A stretch of DNA of 64,000 nt from Hyphococcus flavus (lineage in GTDB: Bacteria; Pseudomonadota; Alphaproteobacteria; Caulobacterales; Parvularculaceae). Made by a program: the position numbers and the translations under genes. This document shows positions 3,348 to 55,039 of this stretch, piece after piece (position 1 is the stretch's first letter; the number at the start of each line of letters is the position of its first letter). The notes beneath the pieces were generated by a model. The model was not told the DNA's origin. It made no database searches and saw only the letters and a program-made list of their open reading frames with translations. The stretch spans positions 3,301,501 through 3,365,500 of the forward strand of contig NZ_CP118166.1 of assembly GCF_028748065.1 (NCBI RefSeq), in the 5' to 3' direction.

Positions 3348-6300
3348 TTAGAAGTCGTAGCGAACGCCGAACTGAACCGCCCAAACAGAAGGGTTAACTT
3401 CCTGCTGGAGTTCCGGATCTTCGAATGCGCTGATAATGTACTGGCCGCCGGAGATACCGCCGAGCTCATAGACCTCAACGCCTTCAGCCACATTGCCGCG
3501 ATCCCAACGCTCAAAGACGTTCATGCCATCGTCAATCAGATTAAGCGCATTCTCGATATCTACGAAAACCTGGAACCTGTCGCTGCCAAAGAAACCAGGA
3601 ATATCCTGCGAAATCCGGATATCCATGTCTTTGAACCACGGATCTTTAAATGCGTTACGCGGTGCGATCTGTCCCGCATATTCGCTCAGGCCGCTTGAAT
3701 CCAAGAACGCGAAGAGTGCATCAACATCAGCCGCACTTAGCATGGACGTATCGATCAGCGGATCGCTTGGACCTGTCGGCACGTAAAGAAGGCGGCGTGC
3801 TTCATCATCACTATCGCCCAAGAAGTCATCAGCATCATCTTGGAACACGTAGCTAAAGCGATTGCCGGAACGTGCATTGAAGAAGATATTCAACCGGGTC
3901 GGATAGTCTTTAATGAACTCCTGACTGAACCGAGCCGCCATCGTGAAGTTATGATTGTTCACGAACTGTGACGGCGCGAGGAAAGCCTGGTTCGGTGTGA
4001 CCACGGCAACTTCTTCAAAGCTAGAGCCAGCCGTCGAGCTGTTACTTGGGTTAACGACTTCAGCAGTTGAATAGGCATAACCTACCATAAAGTCGAACGC
4101 GCCTGGGCTATTGCCAAGGTTGTATTCGAAACGCTTAGCGAACGCGGCCGAAATATTTTGCGTAAAGCCGCCATCGCCAATTGCGTTGGTGAGTAGGATA
4201 TCCTCATCAGTGAATCCAGAGTCACACAGACCGCTATCGGAAAGATCCGACCCTGCAAAACCCTGGCGGATACCGAGGAATGTCGCGTCGCAACCCGCGT
4301 TAAGCGGATTAACGTTGTTGATAATCGGACGACCATCAGGCGCTACCTCACTTGTCGGAGTCAACTGGAGGTTAACCCAATCAGTCGGGTTTTTCAGTTC
4401 AGAACGTATGAAATCGATCTGAACATTCCAGTCGTCGAAGAAGCCGCCACCGCCGGTAAAGTTGGTGTAGTGCGACAGACCAACGTTGTAACGAAGAACT
4501 GATGGCAGTTTGAAATTCGGGTCCACTGCGTTCACTGCCGCTCCGTTTTGCGTAGCTTCGGCAATTTGCTGTGAAGTGATGCAGGCAGGAATGCCCGTGA
4601 ACGTACCACCCGAAACAACTTGTAAGTCAGACATGTTACAAGCTGGGTTACCCGAGTTACCCGAACCAATGGCGCCGCCAAAGTTCTGGTAGTTGTTGGC
4701 GAACCAAACACTTGGGTCACCGCCAGAGAATACGCCTACGCCCCCACGGAACTGCGTTTCACCAAATATTGTTTCGCCGGCATCATAGTTCACACCGAAA
4801 CGCGGTTGAATGATATCTAGCCCGTCAAAAGCCTTGGTGTTGGAAAAGCCGTATTTCTGGAAGAATACTGGGTTAAACCTTGGGTCGTCGTCTGAACCAT
4901 AATAGTCGTAACGCAGACCAACGGTAGCAATCAGGTCGTCTGTGACCTGAATCTCATCCTGAACGTAAGCCGTGTAGATGGTGCGGCGGAATTCAGCTGC
5001 TGCATCATTAATGTCGCCGGTGAAGGAACCGCTACCAGTAATCTCAGACGCAAGACCAGCTTCAAAGTCTGCAAGTGAGTCGAAAGTGATCGTTCCGGTC
5101 GCATCGGGTACGAAGAGGTTGAAGACATCAAACTGATCAACCTCGATACCTGCTGTCAATGTGTGGCGACCTGTGACCCAATCAGCTTTGAACTTGATCT
5201 GATCAAGCTGGGTTTGCAGGTCATTCGCGGAGCGGAAGAAGCCAGGGCCAGAAAGAACCGCACCAGTGTCACCATTATTCATGATGTTTTCAATGAGAAT
5301 CCGTGGTTTTGGATTTCCATCTTGCGCTTCACCGCCACCCACAGGGCCTTGAATATCTTCAACATCGAGTCGAGAGACACGGATTTCAGTAGAAAAATTA
5401 TCCGTCCATTGTGAAAACAGGCGAGCTGAATAGTTCTCGCTATTCGTACCCTCGTTTTCAAAGTTGTCGAAGAACGTGAAATCAGCATCAAATCCGAGGT
5501 CATCAGGATCCTGACGCAGTTCGCGAAGCCGTGAGTAGGTTAGCTCAAGACGATGATCATCATTGATTGCCCAGTCTACCCGACCAAGAATACGACGGCT
5601 TTTGTCGGGAAGGTTTCGGGCAAAGCCCATCGCATCACGGCCATAAACTGTCTGGAGCGTATTTGCGATATCATTGGCAACGCTCTCCGGCAGGTAGTCT
5701 AGTTCGTTGGCGAAGCCCGCGCCGAGGGGGCCGGTATCGACAGTAGAACCACCATCCTGCACTTCTTCGTAAGCGCCAAAGAACCAGAGGCGGTCTTTGA
5801 TGATCGGCCCACCAAGTGATGCGCCCCAGTTCCAATCTTTAAACTCACCAGACCGAACTGTATTTCCATCGATCGTTTCGCCAGTTAAGTCACCATTATT
5901 GAAAACGCCGAATGCGCCGCCATGAAATTCATTGGTGCCGGCCTTGGTAACAACGTTGATGTTACAACCGGAAAACTGGCCATACTCAACATCGAACGGA
6001 GAAAACTCGACAGATGTCTCGCGAACAGCGTCAAATGGAATAGGCAGGTTATTACGGTTCGGAAAACCAGAGTCGTTCAGACCGAAACCGTCTGCATTGC
6101 GAACACCATCGATCGTGAAAGAGTTGGAACGGAAGTTGCCGCCAAGGCAGCTAATGGAATCATTGTTGTTCTCATCAATCGTAACGCGTGGATCGAGACG
6201 GATTACGTCGCGAATGTCGCGGTCGATGGATGGAAGGGATTCGAGGGTATCAAGGTCGAACGAAGCGCTTGGACCAATCGCTAATTCAGAAACGTTCGAG

Positions 6301-51921: not shown

Positions 51922-53742
51922 TTACCCGCGCTCCCGCTCGATATAATCGTCGATCACGCGTTCCAGGACGGTCATGGGCACGTTGCCGCCGAGGACCACG
52001 GCGTCGTTGAAGCGGCGGAAGTCGAACTTATCGCCCAGCGCCGCTTTTGCTTTCTCGCGCAGCGCGACAATCGCCGAATGGCCGACCTTGTAACCGCAGG
52101 CCTGACCCGGCCATGCACAATAGCGGTCAACCTCGCTCTGAACTTCGTCCGGGTTCGACCCATTATTCACAACGAAAAAGTCGATGCCCTGTTGCCGGGT
52201 CCAGCGCTTGGCGTGGAGGCCGGTGTCGACCACCAGACGGCAGGCGCGGAAGGCGAGCGATTGCAAGTATCCCAGCCGGCCAACGGGGAAGTCGTCATAA
52301 ACGCCAAGCTCATCGGCGATCCGTTCCGCGTAAAGCGCCCATCCTTCCGAATACGCATTAAACGCCAATAGCGAGCGGACCAGCGGTTGCTTGAATGTGT
52401 ACTCGCCCTGCCAGACATGGCCGGGGATCGCCTCGTGATAGGTAAGGTCTTGCAGCGTGAATGTCCGGTGAAGATCGGGCGTGCGTAAATTTATCCAGAA
52501 ATGACCGGGCTGAGTGCCGTCGATAGAGCCGGCGCCGCCATAGGCGCCGGGGGCGCCGTCCTCAACATCGGGGGAGATGCGCGTCACCTCAAGGAAACCG
52601 GGGACGAGCGTTTCAAACGCCTGCGGCATCAGCCCGCGAATTTCCTCCAGCTTTTCGTCGATGAACGCCATGATCTGCGCCCGGCCCTCGTCACCGTCTG
52701 CAAACTGATAGCGCGGGTCGTCGTAAAGCGCGGCCATACGCGCGCCAACGGGGCCGTCCTCATAGCCGATGGATTTGAGGATCGGGTCCATTTGCGCGTG
52801 CAGGCTGGCCAGTTCATCAAGGCCCATCTGGTGGACTTCGTCCGGGGTCATGGTTGTCGTGGTCGCCGCTTTCAGCGCCCAGGTATAATAGGCCTCGCCA
52901 TCGGGCTGGGCCCAAACGCCGGCGCTATCCGTTGCCTGCGCTTCCAGCGCTTCAAGGGCCGCTATCTGGCGTTCCATGGCGGGTGCGATTTTGTCTTCGG
53001 CGATGGCGCGCGCCTGATCGCTGTAGTCGCCGCCAAGGTCCGCGGCGCGGGTCGCCAGCGAGGTGACGATACCCCAGTTTTCTACCGGCGCCGCGCGGCC
53101 CGTGCGCAACTGGCCCAAGGTTTTCGCCATTAGAAAATCCGGCAGGATGACGCCGCGCGCGCCGTCGGCCGTAATGCGCTCCGATTCACCGTCGAGCTGT
53201 CCGGCGTAAGCTTCCATCCGCGCAAGGTAAGCGTCGGCGTCTTCGCTTGTTTCAATCTGGTGGGCGGAATCGAGGAACGACGGAATATCCACAAACGCGC
53301 CGGTATTCTGCGCCACCACATAAGGCGACGGCCGGTAAGACCAGTTCGAATTCAACAGCGCCATGTCGCCATTGGGGAAGTCGAACCCTTCAGCCGCCGT
53401 TTCGAACACCGTGCGGATCACATCGACGTTCAACGCCTCGCCCGCTTCCATATTGGACGTGTCGACTTTCTTAAGGCGGGCGAGCATGTCGCGCACATTG
53501 CTTTCAATCGCCGCCTGCCCTTCAGGGGACTGGTCAGACAGTTGCGATTTCAGTGCGCTGTATTTTCCATTGTCGATGCCGGCGCTCGACGCGGTTTCCG
53601 GATAGGAATTGAGCAGCAGGTCGGTCACGTCATCGAGAAGGTTTGTTTCCTCGTCGCCGCCTCCCTTCGAACAGGCTGGCAGGACCGACATCGCCGCCGT
53701 AGCAGCAGTTGTTTGAAGAAGCGTGCGGCGCGACATATTCAT
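51922..53742 (-). CDS. DUF885 family Tat-exported lipoprotein
   Basis: 606 residues from ATG 53742 (GGGGA eight bases upstream). The signal MNMSRRTLLQTTAATAAMSV is twin-arginine, and LPAC (Cys24) is a lipobox. The metal motif HEAIPGH is at 436-442 with a further GWALYAE downstream, as in DUF885 peptidase-like enzymes related to M32/M3 folds. It is likely a periplasmic zinc peptidase. The last 91 bases are duplicated at 50596-50686. Confidence 0.88.
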   Translation of the reverse strand: MNMSRRTLLQTTAATAAMSVLPACSKGGGDEETNLLDDVTDLLLNSYPETASSAGIDNGKYSALKSQLSDQSPEGQAAIESNVRDMLARLKKVDTSNMEAGEALNVDVIRTVFETAAEGFDFPNGDMALLNSNWSYRPSPYVVAQNTGAFVDIPSFLDSAHQIETSEDADAYLARMEAYAGQLDGESERITADGARGVILPDFLMAKTLGQLRTGRAAPVENWGIVTSLATRAADLGGDYSDQARAIAEDKIAPAMERQIAALEALEAQATDSAGVWAQPDGEAYYTWALKAATTTTMTPDEVHQMGLDELASLHAQMDPILKSIGYEDGPVGARMAALYDDPRYQFADGDEGRAQIMAFIDEKLEEIRGLMPQAFETLVPGFLEVTRISPDVEDGAPGAYGGAGSIDGTQPGHFWINLRTPDLHRTFTLQDLTYHEAIPGHVWQGEYTFKQPLVRSLLAFNAYSEGWALYAERIADELGVYDDFPVGRLGYLQSLAFRACRLVVDTGLHAKRWTRQQGIDFFVVNNGSNPDEVQSEVDRYCAWPGQACGYKVGHSAIVALREKAKAALGDKFDFRRFNDAVVLGGNVPMTVLERVIDDYIERERG

Positions 53743-53899
53743 TGGAATTTCCCCATCCTGGTGATTTTTGCGCGCAGCGTGCCGCAAAGCGCCGGGCATT
53801 GCAATTCGGATCGCTTAGGATCCGCGCCATAAGCCCTTTCGCGTCAGAATGTGTTACAAGCGTCGCCGTTATGTTGCGTCAGGGATTCGCGGAGGGAAG

Positions 53900-55039
53900 A
53901 TGAGTATCGACCGCAGACATTTCGTTATGGCTGGCGCCGGGGCGCTTGCATCGGGCTGCTCTCTTACCGGCGGGAGCCAGCAACAGATGGGCTTTGCCAA
54001 GGCGCCATTACTCTCGCCTCTCAACGTATCAGAGGGCGCCGTTACGAAAGTTACGGTCTGTACACGTCCTTTTCGACCGGCTGGACCGCGGCTGGAAGCC
54101 GAAGCCATGGACGGCAAAAAGATCGTGCATAATTACGGCCATGGCGGTTCCGGCTGGTCGTTGTCATGGGGGTGCGCGAACGACGCGACGGCGCTGGCGT
54201 TAGAAGACGGACCAAAAGCCGTCGCGGTCATCGGCGCGGGCGTCATGGGACTGACGACGGCTCACAAGCTCGCCGAGAGCGGCGTTCCCGTCACCATTTA
54301 TGCAAAAGAATTTCCGCTGGAGACACGCTCGGCAAAGGCAAGCGGCGTGTGGTCGCCGTCAAGCCGCATTGGCCTTTCCAGCGCTGTAAAAAACGGTTTT
54401 GAAGATCGCTGGGAAAATTGGGCGCGCGCATCCTATGGGGTTCATCAGCAATTTGTCGGCGCGGCGGCGGCGCCGGTGGAATATGTAACGCAATACGCAC
54501 TTTCCAACGGCCAGTCATCGTCGACGCCTGCGCGTCATGACTTTCTGCATTTGGGGCGGCGCGTTCGTGATCTGATGCCGCGCGGGTCGGCAGTGTCGCA
54601 AGAACAAAACCCGTTCCCCGTCGAGCGCGCCTATGGCGGACTTTGGATGAGTTTCAATGTGGCGAGTTACGCCAACCATCTGACGCGCGATTTTTTGTTA
54701 CGCGGCGGACGCATGGTGCGCCGTGAATTCCCTGACCGCGCGGCGATTTTATCGTTGCCGGAAAGCGTCATCGTGAATTGTACGGGGTATGACGCCAAAC
54801 GTCTTTGGGGCGATGACAGCCTTATTCCCGTCCGCGGACAGATTAACTGGCTAGCGCCGCAGCTTTCAGCGCGTTATGCACTCTTTTACAACGAGGTCTT
54901 CGCTATCTCCCGTCGCGACGGCGTTGTGGTGCAATATGTCGGCGCCAATGACGACTGGGGCATGGAAGATGAGGGTGAAACGCCGGACAGAGACGAGACC
55001 ACCAGGGCGCTGGGTATTCTCGCTCCGCTTTTTTCTTGA
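53900..55039 (+). CDS. D-amino-acid-oxidase-like flavoprotein, circularly permuted
   Basis: 379 residues from ATG 53900 (GGAGGG upstream). The C-terminal FAD motif of D-amino-acid oxidases comes first here: RPFRPAGPRLEAE (56-68) and HNYGHGGSGWSLSWG (77-91). The FAD-binding GAGVMG, normally at the N-terminus, follows at 112-117 (AVAVIGAGVMGLTTAHKLAE). It then continues with SGVWSPSSRIG, YGGLWMSFNV and NCTGYDAKRL. A Tat-like start (RRHFVMAGAGALASGC) suggests export. It probably oxidises an amine or amino acid to an imino acid and peroxide. Confidence 0.82.
   Translation: MSIDRRHFVMAGAGALASGCSLTGGSQQQMGFAKAPLLSPLNVSEGAVTKVTVCTRPFRPAGPRLEAEAMDGKKIVHNYGHGGSGWSLSWGCANDATALALEDGPKAVAVIGAGVMGLTTAHKLAESGVPVTIYAKEFPLETRSAKASGVWSPSSRIGLSSAVKNGFEDRWENWARASYGVHQQFVGAAAAPVEYVTQYALSNGQSSSTPARHDFLHLGRRVRDLMPRGSAVSQEQNPFPVERAYGGLWMSFNVASYANHLTRDFLLRGGRMVRREFPDRAAILSLPESVIVNCTGYDAKRLWGDDSLIPVRGQINWLAPQLSARYALFYNEVFAISRRDGVVVQYVGANDDWGMEDEGETPDRDETTRALGILAPLFS

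Follow-up and report, generated by a model that had tools for sequence, protein, structure and literature searches.

At positions 53900-55039 (+) of a 64,000-nucleotide stretch of Hyphococcus flavus DNA (contig NZ_CP118166.1, positions 3,301,501 to 3,365,500; hereafter the window), an uninterrupted open reading frame (ORF) of 379 residues encodes a flavoprotein resembling D-amino-acid oxidase (DAAO), in which the two main segments of the chain appear in circularly permuted order. A Shine-Dalgarno-like GGAGGG lies directly 5' of the ATG at 53900, and the starts of relatives also fall near this codon; an in-frame ATG at 53849 would lengthen the protein to 396 residues. The Pfam model DAO (PF01266) covers residues 108-374 with 87.7 bits, above its cut-off of 27.9, and none of the 25 models listed in an NCBIfam scan came near its own cut-off.

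All features of the gene are on the forward strand. Residues 1-20 (53900-53959) form a predicted signal peptide of the twin-arginine translocation (Tat) type, with an arginine pair at 5-6, a hydrophobic stretch, and a lipobox-like ASGC at 17-20 that ends in Cys20. A flexible tether follows at residues 21-44 (53960-54031), where the predicted local distance difference test (pLDDT) score of the structure model averages 48 over residues 21-30 and 71 over residues 31-40, and lies below 50 for residues 24-32. The equivalent of the DAAO C-terminus occupies residues 45-104 (54032-54211), i.e., three strands and a helix that include RPFRP (56-60), HNYGHGGSGW (77-86), and the counterpart of the carboxylate-binding arginine of DAAOs, Arg56 (54065-54067). 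According to Pfam, sequence and fold matches, residues 105-379 (54212-55036) correspond to the N-terminal part of DAAO, with the flavin adenine dinucleotide (FAD) domain and the substrate domain, and end in helix 364-377. The GxGxxG FAD motif is present as GAGVMG at residues 112-117 (54233-54250), behind the C-terminal-type segment, and its G112, G114 and G117 are invariant in alignments A1 and A2. The motif positions agree with those of a first-pass annotation of the window, which had read their order as a circular permutation of the fold and had also proposed a possible Tat export signal.

Swapped order of the DAAO segments

When the window protein was searched against the Protein Data Bank (PDB) with phmmer, residues 49-99 aligned to residues 321-371 of the DAAO 7ct4 (independent E-value 5.4e-10), and residues 107-315 aligned to residues 25-239 of the same chain (6.9e-5). 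A profile built from alignment A2, which holds 56 relatives, also matched 7ct4 in two pieces of swapped order, with independent E-values of 1.2e-14 for the C-segment, covering 7ct4 320-378, and 2.1e-12 for the FAD part. As a control, a canonical Streptomyces DAAO gave both profile pieces in the opposite order. The profile search included 17 rows for DAAO or D-aspartate oxidase; the best-matching stretch was the C-segment near the chain end in 16 of them, and the FAD part at the chain start in 1c0i (ordinary order).

Comparison by BLASTP with a canonical acidobacterial DAAO (L181) placed residues 108-353 of the window protein on residues 8-237 (E = 2e-16) and residues 6-101 on 204-317 (E = 8e-13), the clean match of the latter being its last ~55 columns only. 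A like swapped result was obtained with a second permuted protein, L123, from group A of the phylogeny presented below. In alignment A3, which includes two actinobacterial DAAOs, the end of the window protein falls opposite the helix preceding their GLRPxR segment.

The moved segment retains the Arg-Pro pair and the FAD-loop motif. YGHGGSG at residues 79-85 fits the YGHGGxG sequence of bacterial DAAOs given in excerpts of PMC9844085. In comparison with the GxRPxR motif given in the same excerpts, the window protein has RPFR at 56-59, but Cys54 in place of the first Gly; many group A and group B members carry GLRPxR or GVRPxR. A DAAO signature pattern of the PROSITE type fits the window protein but none of 100000 shuffles of it, and the strict form of the pattern matches 97 of 148 permuted and seven of eight canonical proteins. 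The spacing from HNYGHGG to the FAD motif is nearly constant, with 35 residues in 126 of 145 cases. Neither GHGG nor HNYG occurs beyond the window gene in the three forward frames up to 56500, and none of the 186 classified ORFs (a count that includes repeats and two false entries) has a second copy of the C-segment, which rules out an extra N-terminal copy beside an intact C-terminus.

The structure prediction suggested in the first-pass annotation was carried out with AlphaFold2 on alignment A2, and yields one confident fold with its elements in permuted order (mean pLDDT of 92.3, predicted template modelling score (pTM) of 0.87, and pLDDT block means of 96-99 for the moved segment and for the FAD strand). 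These elements are strands 48-58, 64-70 and 73-79, helix 82-100, FAD strand 108-111, and the last helix 364-377. The model of L123, produced from 22 alignment rows, presents the main elements in the same order, with a pLDDT of 80.4 and a pTM of 0.82, and is poor at residues 172-203 and 338-362. When the window model was compared with the PDB by Foldseek, ranks 1-33 were DAAO or D-aspartate oxidase (29 by title, in addition to four chains of 4qfc and 4qfd that we take to be such enzymes), with TM-scores by query of 0.51-0.57 over 282-306 columns. Given that Foldseek follows chain order, these matches support the main body of the model and are silent on the place of the moved segment. Weaker matches extend to the opine dehydrogenase 7fgp and the iminodiacetate oxidase 6pxs.

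From the sequence comparisons, it is near certain that the window protein is a DAAO-family protein with a circularly permuted chain order. This upholds the first-pass claim, since the homology of the moved segment is to the C-terminus of DAAO, the segment has no second copy, and 148 distinct proteins share this order. In the alignments, the last ~55 residues of a DAAO (the Arg-Pro strand, the YGHGGxG loop and the final helix) are now found ahead of the FAD-binding strand, to which a short linker connects them; the chain ends with the helix that comes before the moved segment in ordinary DAAOs.

Distribution and origin of the permuted family

The genome survey suggested in the first-pass annotation revealed that the order is not unique to the window, and uncovered a large family that the annotation had not foreseen. 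After 28 repeats and two false entries were dropped, 156 distinct fetched proteins with both segments remained, of which 148 are permuted (the window protein included) and eight are canonical; nearly all loci were fetched by permuted queries, hence this proportion is biased and is not a natural ratio. Of twelve initial canonical calls, two (L080, minus strand, and L015) were recognized by eye as other enzymes and dropped, and L161 and L162 repeat L147.

Matches were found in 14 of 62 genomes of the window's own family (E of 1.9e-37 or better), 7 of 28 genomes of its genus, and 71 of 200 genomes of its order (E of 1.3e-25 or better); weaker order-level matches span short stretches only, mostly the FAD motif. 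The family and order matches are colinear with the permuted query, 36 of the 40 fetched loci having been read. In a Pseudomonadota sample, the profile finds a match at 1e-15 in 20 of 398 genomes. In the Acidobacteriota, the phylum of Edaphobacter, matches at 1e-10 occur in 16 of 149 genomes; ten of these have colinear permuted copies (13 genes, with the centre genome counted), and the remaining six have pieces that are canonical on reading. One acidobacterial genome, G650, holds four permuted DAAO genes (L174, L187, L188 and L189). In the Verrucomicrobiota, the phylum of the Opitutaceae member mentioned below, matches occur in two of 145 genomes, the centre genome among them.

A scan of named genomes returned at least 591 stretches, at least 565 of which are relatives. 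The best 80, which were retained, come from Alpha-, Beta- and Gammaproteobacteria, Acidobacteriota, one Opitutaceae member, and a few metagenome-assembled genomes. All 83 ORFs from these 80 and from three IMG/VR loci are permuted according to the hidden Markov model (HMM), including two that carry a GxGxxG-like stretch in the signal peptide. Among plasmids, the native query at 1e-5 found six records, and a rotated query at 1e-3 found the same six and four others, namely three actinobacterial DAAOs (each matched in one uninterrupted piece along 97-98% of the rotated order) and an oxidoreductase from a haloarchaeon. A search for canonical DAAOs in 299 Pseudomonadota genomes with one distant Tsukamurella query, which is a weak test, found none: seven genomes matched at E of 1e-10 or better, five through permuted genes and two through ThiO-like glycine oxidases (235 and 246 bits, cut-off 250.8).

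Among viral contigs in IMG/VR, an alignment query found three loci, and a single-protein query and a canonical query found none. In one IMG/VR contig (L121, 1-5208), a group B permuted DAAO whose frame is broken near the 3' end lies between a phage terminase gene and genes for ParA and an HK97 portal protein. Given that IMG/VR selects phage-like contigs, the DNA may come from a host and flank a prophage or gene transfer agent. In the IMG/VR contig L123 (518-6391; L122 has the same protein), genes for a serine recombinase and a phage terminase come before the group A permuted DAAO, and a NUDIX and pentapeptide-repeat ORF comes after it.

For the phylogeny, the permuted sequences were rotated so as to match the canonical order, and the alignment also took in eight canonical DAAOs and, as outgroup, two ThiO-like proteins. 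After thinning of near copies, 136 of 186 sequences were kept (126 permuted, eight canonical and two outgroup). In the FastTree tree of these 136 taxa, the 126 permuted proteins form a single clade with a support of 0.911, and the eight canonical proteins form a clade of their own (0.96). An IQ-TREE analysis was performed on the FAD part alone, in which rotation plays no role, with 64 taxa (23 of the 95 window-like sequences and all others); it gave ultrafast bootstrap (UFBoot) values of 97 for the permuted clade and 97 for the canonical clade. Both trees cover DAAOs from outside the eukaryotes.

Three groups were distinguished in the permuted clade. Group A, taken to be cytosolic, has six tips, from Rhizobium, Bradyrhizobium, Nonomuraea and others, with a Tat-like start in one of the six. 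Group B has 25 tips, of which 22 are Tat-like, and retains much of the DAAO active site (support 0.985 in FastTree, 70 in IQ-TREE). Group C, which contains the window protein, has 95 tips, 80 of them Tat-like (0.322 in FastTree, 96 in IQ-TREE). Because the permuted proteins form one clade, the permutation probably arose once. Group A is sister to B and C, and for this reason the permutation most likely preceded the general export of the family, in which case export may not be the reason for the permutation; a loss of the signal in group A would fit as well.

These Tat counts also support the export signal proposed in the first-pass annotation. The Tat and lipobox calls were made by eye and regular expression throughout the family; by these means, the start of the window protein is judged plausible, and 59 of the 95 window-like tips pass the lipobox rule. 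As judged from their N-termini, most family members, including the window's, start like Tat-exported proteins.

Proposed reaction and competing explanations

Alignment columns of the active site were named by residue numbers that we take to be those of pig DAAO. The column of Arg56 holds an arginine in all 134 tree tips examined (95 window-like, 25 group B, six group A and eight canonical). This carboxylate-binding residue is R285 in RtoDAAO, as stated in excerpts of PMC9844085, where the arginine with its neighbouring proline and the FAD fingerprint are described as constant among DAAOs, and the active-site tyrosine, long considered mandatory, as variable. In the window protein, F334 aligns with the active-site tyrosine of L181.

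The neighbourhoods of relatives, which do not concern the window gene directly, offer further indications. A script that took permuted genes with enough flank (three short ones were excluded) found a c-type cytochrome gene directly downstream on the same strand in 12 of 145, and L113 was added by eye. Together, these cases are every tip of a 12-tip subclade within the window's group (support 0.993) and L095, a near copy thinned before the tree was built; their sources are Acetobacteraceae, sphingomonads, and other Alphaproteobacteria or Pseudomonadota. A Kozakia plasmid encodes, ahead of the permuted gene and the cytochrome gene that adjoins it, a pair of serine hydrolases of PF00144, a peptidase of the S9 family, and a protein similar to DadA (361 bits, cut-off 383); for the PF00144 hydrolase scanned in NCBIfam, the best model was AmpH, with 51.6 bits, far under its cut-off of 266. 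In three of the six group A tips (Nonomuraea, Rhizobium and Bradyrhizobium), the next gene encodes a thiamine pyrophosphate (TPP) enzyme resembling indolepyruvate/phenylpyruvate decarboxylase (L149, 5015-6667; L150, 4990-6693; L151, 5008-6705), with 207-222 bits, below the cut-off of 554.5. Such a neighbour fits a 2-oxo-acid product of the permuted enzyme.

We consider it fairly likely that the window gene encodes a periplasmic, circularly permuted DAAO-like flavoenzyme. It would probably act as a D-amino-acid dehydrogenase, a function in which both the substrate and the electron acceptor are inferred. The two parts of the chain would fold back into a normal DAAO fold, with FAD bound in the cytoplasm, and the folded form would be exported by Tat and anchored by a lipid on Cys20. 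FAD would sit on the strand-helix-strand at residues 108-135, and the segment at 45-104 would close the other side, so that Arg56 would reach the carboxylate of the substrate, and the GHGGSG loop the flavin. A hydride would pass from the substrate C-H to the flavin, so that a D-amino acid or a close relative would be oxidized in the periplasm to an imino acid, which would hydrolyse to a 2-oxo acid. The flavin would then be reoxidized by a c-type cytochrome or another periplasmic or respiratory acceptor, and not mainly by O2.

Several observations weigh against this proposal. No cytochrome gene lies beside the window gene, and 133 of the 145 genes scored by the script lack one (L113, among them, has one by eye). 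The window's neighbours were found beside relatives in none of the other fetched loci at E of 1e-8, the flanks being mostly 1.5-6 kb. In the other three of the six group A tips, no same-strand TPP enzyme follows (in L122/L123 and L143, none within short flanks), and L140, also of group A, has a piece of a TPP enzyme nearby on the other strand. The active-site tyrosine is kept in only 10 of 95 group C tips, against 17 of 25 in group B, six of six in group A, and seven of eight canonical tips, in a column that depends on the alignment; in addition, the first glycine of the canonical GG(T) is a glutamine in 89 of the 95 group C tips. Given both replacements, the substrate or chemistry of the window's group may have shifted. 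Finally, we know of no activity established for any member of the permuted family.

Two alternatives keep the permuted DAAO fold. The protein could be a true oxidase that is exported and reacts with O2; the H2O2 released in the periplasm might serve defence or signalling by D-amino acids. O2 is used by DAAO and D-aspartate oxidase, which among solved structures are nearest to the window protein in both sequence and fold, and the window gene and most relatives have no adjacent cytochrome gene; yet the cytochrome c gene adjoining all 12 tips of one subclade points to a dehydrogenase at least there, and we regard an oxidase as rather unlikely. It is likewise doubtful that the substrate is something other than a free D-amino acid, such as an N-substituted or peptide-linked amine or another carboxylate-bearing amine. 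This would agree with the loss of the tyrosine and GG motif in the window's group, and with the weaker Foldseek matches to 7fgp and 6pxs. However, Arg56 is conserved in all tips examined, the neighbours in some loci suit D-amino acids or 2-oxo acids, and the tyrosine varies among DAAOs too (excerpts of PMC9844085).

The remaining alternatives deny the permutation itself. It is highly improbable that the N-terminal segment is an unrelated insertion whose likeness to the C-terminus of DAAO is convergent, the original C-terminus having been lost or replaced: in the profile search, this segment by itself shows significant homology to the C-terminus of DAAO, the window protein stops just short of the canonical place of that segment, and the spacing to the FAD motif is near fixed. 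The probability of a sequencing, assembly or frameshift artefact is negligible: the intact ORF and the same order in 148 distinct proteins from many genomes rule it out.

Beyond the preferred assignment of the window protein as a periplasmic dehydrogenase, a broader scenario can be put forward tentatively, with somewhat less than even chances: one ancient permutation of a DAAO would have founded a periplasmic branch, rewired from O2-using oxidases to respiratory D-amino-acid dehydrogenases with dedicated c-type cytochromes. If true, a textbook enzyme would have been both permuted and re-plumbed in nature.

Known relatives and further neighbouring genes

Both segments of the window protein are homologous to those of DAAO and D-aspartate oxidase (Pfam DAO, PF01266), whose folds are the nearest in Foldseek, and RPxR, YGHGGxG and GxGxxG are all found in it. 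The window's family differs in its swapped order and predicted Tat export, and the window's group in having mostly lost the tyrosine and GG motif. With DadA (NF001933), a separate branch with the ordinary segment order, the window protein would share the proposed reaction, in which a D-amino acid becomes a 2-oxo acid and the respiratory chain receives the electrons, but the match between them is a FAD stretch of only ~40 residues, with 25.5 bits against a cut-off of 383. The glycine oxidase ThiO has a FAD domain of the same superfamily (36.5 bits on the window protein, cut-off 250.8), but has the ordinary order; with ThiO set as outgroup, the permuted and canonical DAAO clades both stand apart from it.

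No report of a permuted DAAO was found in the literature searched, a scope that lies outside most subscription journals and bioRxiv, and the word permutation is absent from the main text of a survey for new bacterial DAAOs (PMC9844085). Where an annotation of family members is displayed, it is FAD-dependent oxidoreductase only. This large bacterial family, of which most members are predicted to be exported, seems to be undescribed. Kozakia belongs to the same family as Asaia bogorensis. The proteome of proteins released by the latter lists a 'D-amino acid oxidase' (excerpts of PMC12502724).

DAAO is a model flavoenzyme of neuroscience and biotechnology, and the rule of an N-terminal GxGxxG serves to find new members. 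With a natural permutation in a buried-cofactor fold, and canonical relatives within the same phylum (Acidobacteriota), the dependence of FAD folding, export and acceptor choice on chain order becomes directly testable. Some bacterial D-amino-acid oxidation may fall to proteins annotated only as FAD-dependent oxidoreductase.

In the window, a divergent gene at 51922-53799 (-) encodes a DUF885 protein (PF05960, 513 bits) with a Tat-lipoprotein-like start of its own, ~100 bases from the ATG at 53900. This Tat protein, a metallophosphoesterase, and PF00144 and PF00756 hydrolases were considered as a functional operon with the permuted gene, and rejected as evidence because they match no other fetched locus at E of 1e-8. 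The pyridoxal phosphate (PLP) gene adjoining Erythrobacter-type members, a serine racemase look-alike, is the cysteine synthase CysK.

In the Rhizobium and Bradyrhizobium loci of group A, an FAD-binding oxidoreductase (of berberine-bridge type in L150) precedes the permuted DAAO, and the plasmids are predicted to be conjugative; the cluster looks like a small biosynthetic operon. In L105, a Tat-type flavin amine oxidoreductase (PF01593) is encoded at 3760-5349, upstream of the permuted gene and cytochrome c, and a similar N-terminus is found at the far end of L106 (12822-13232).
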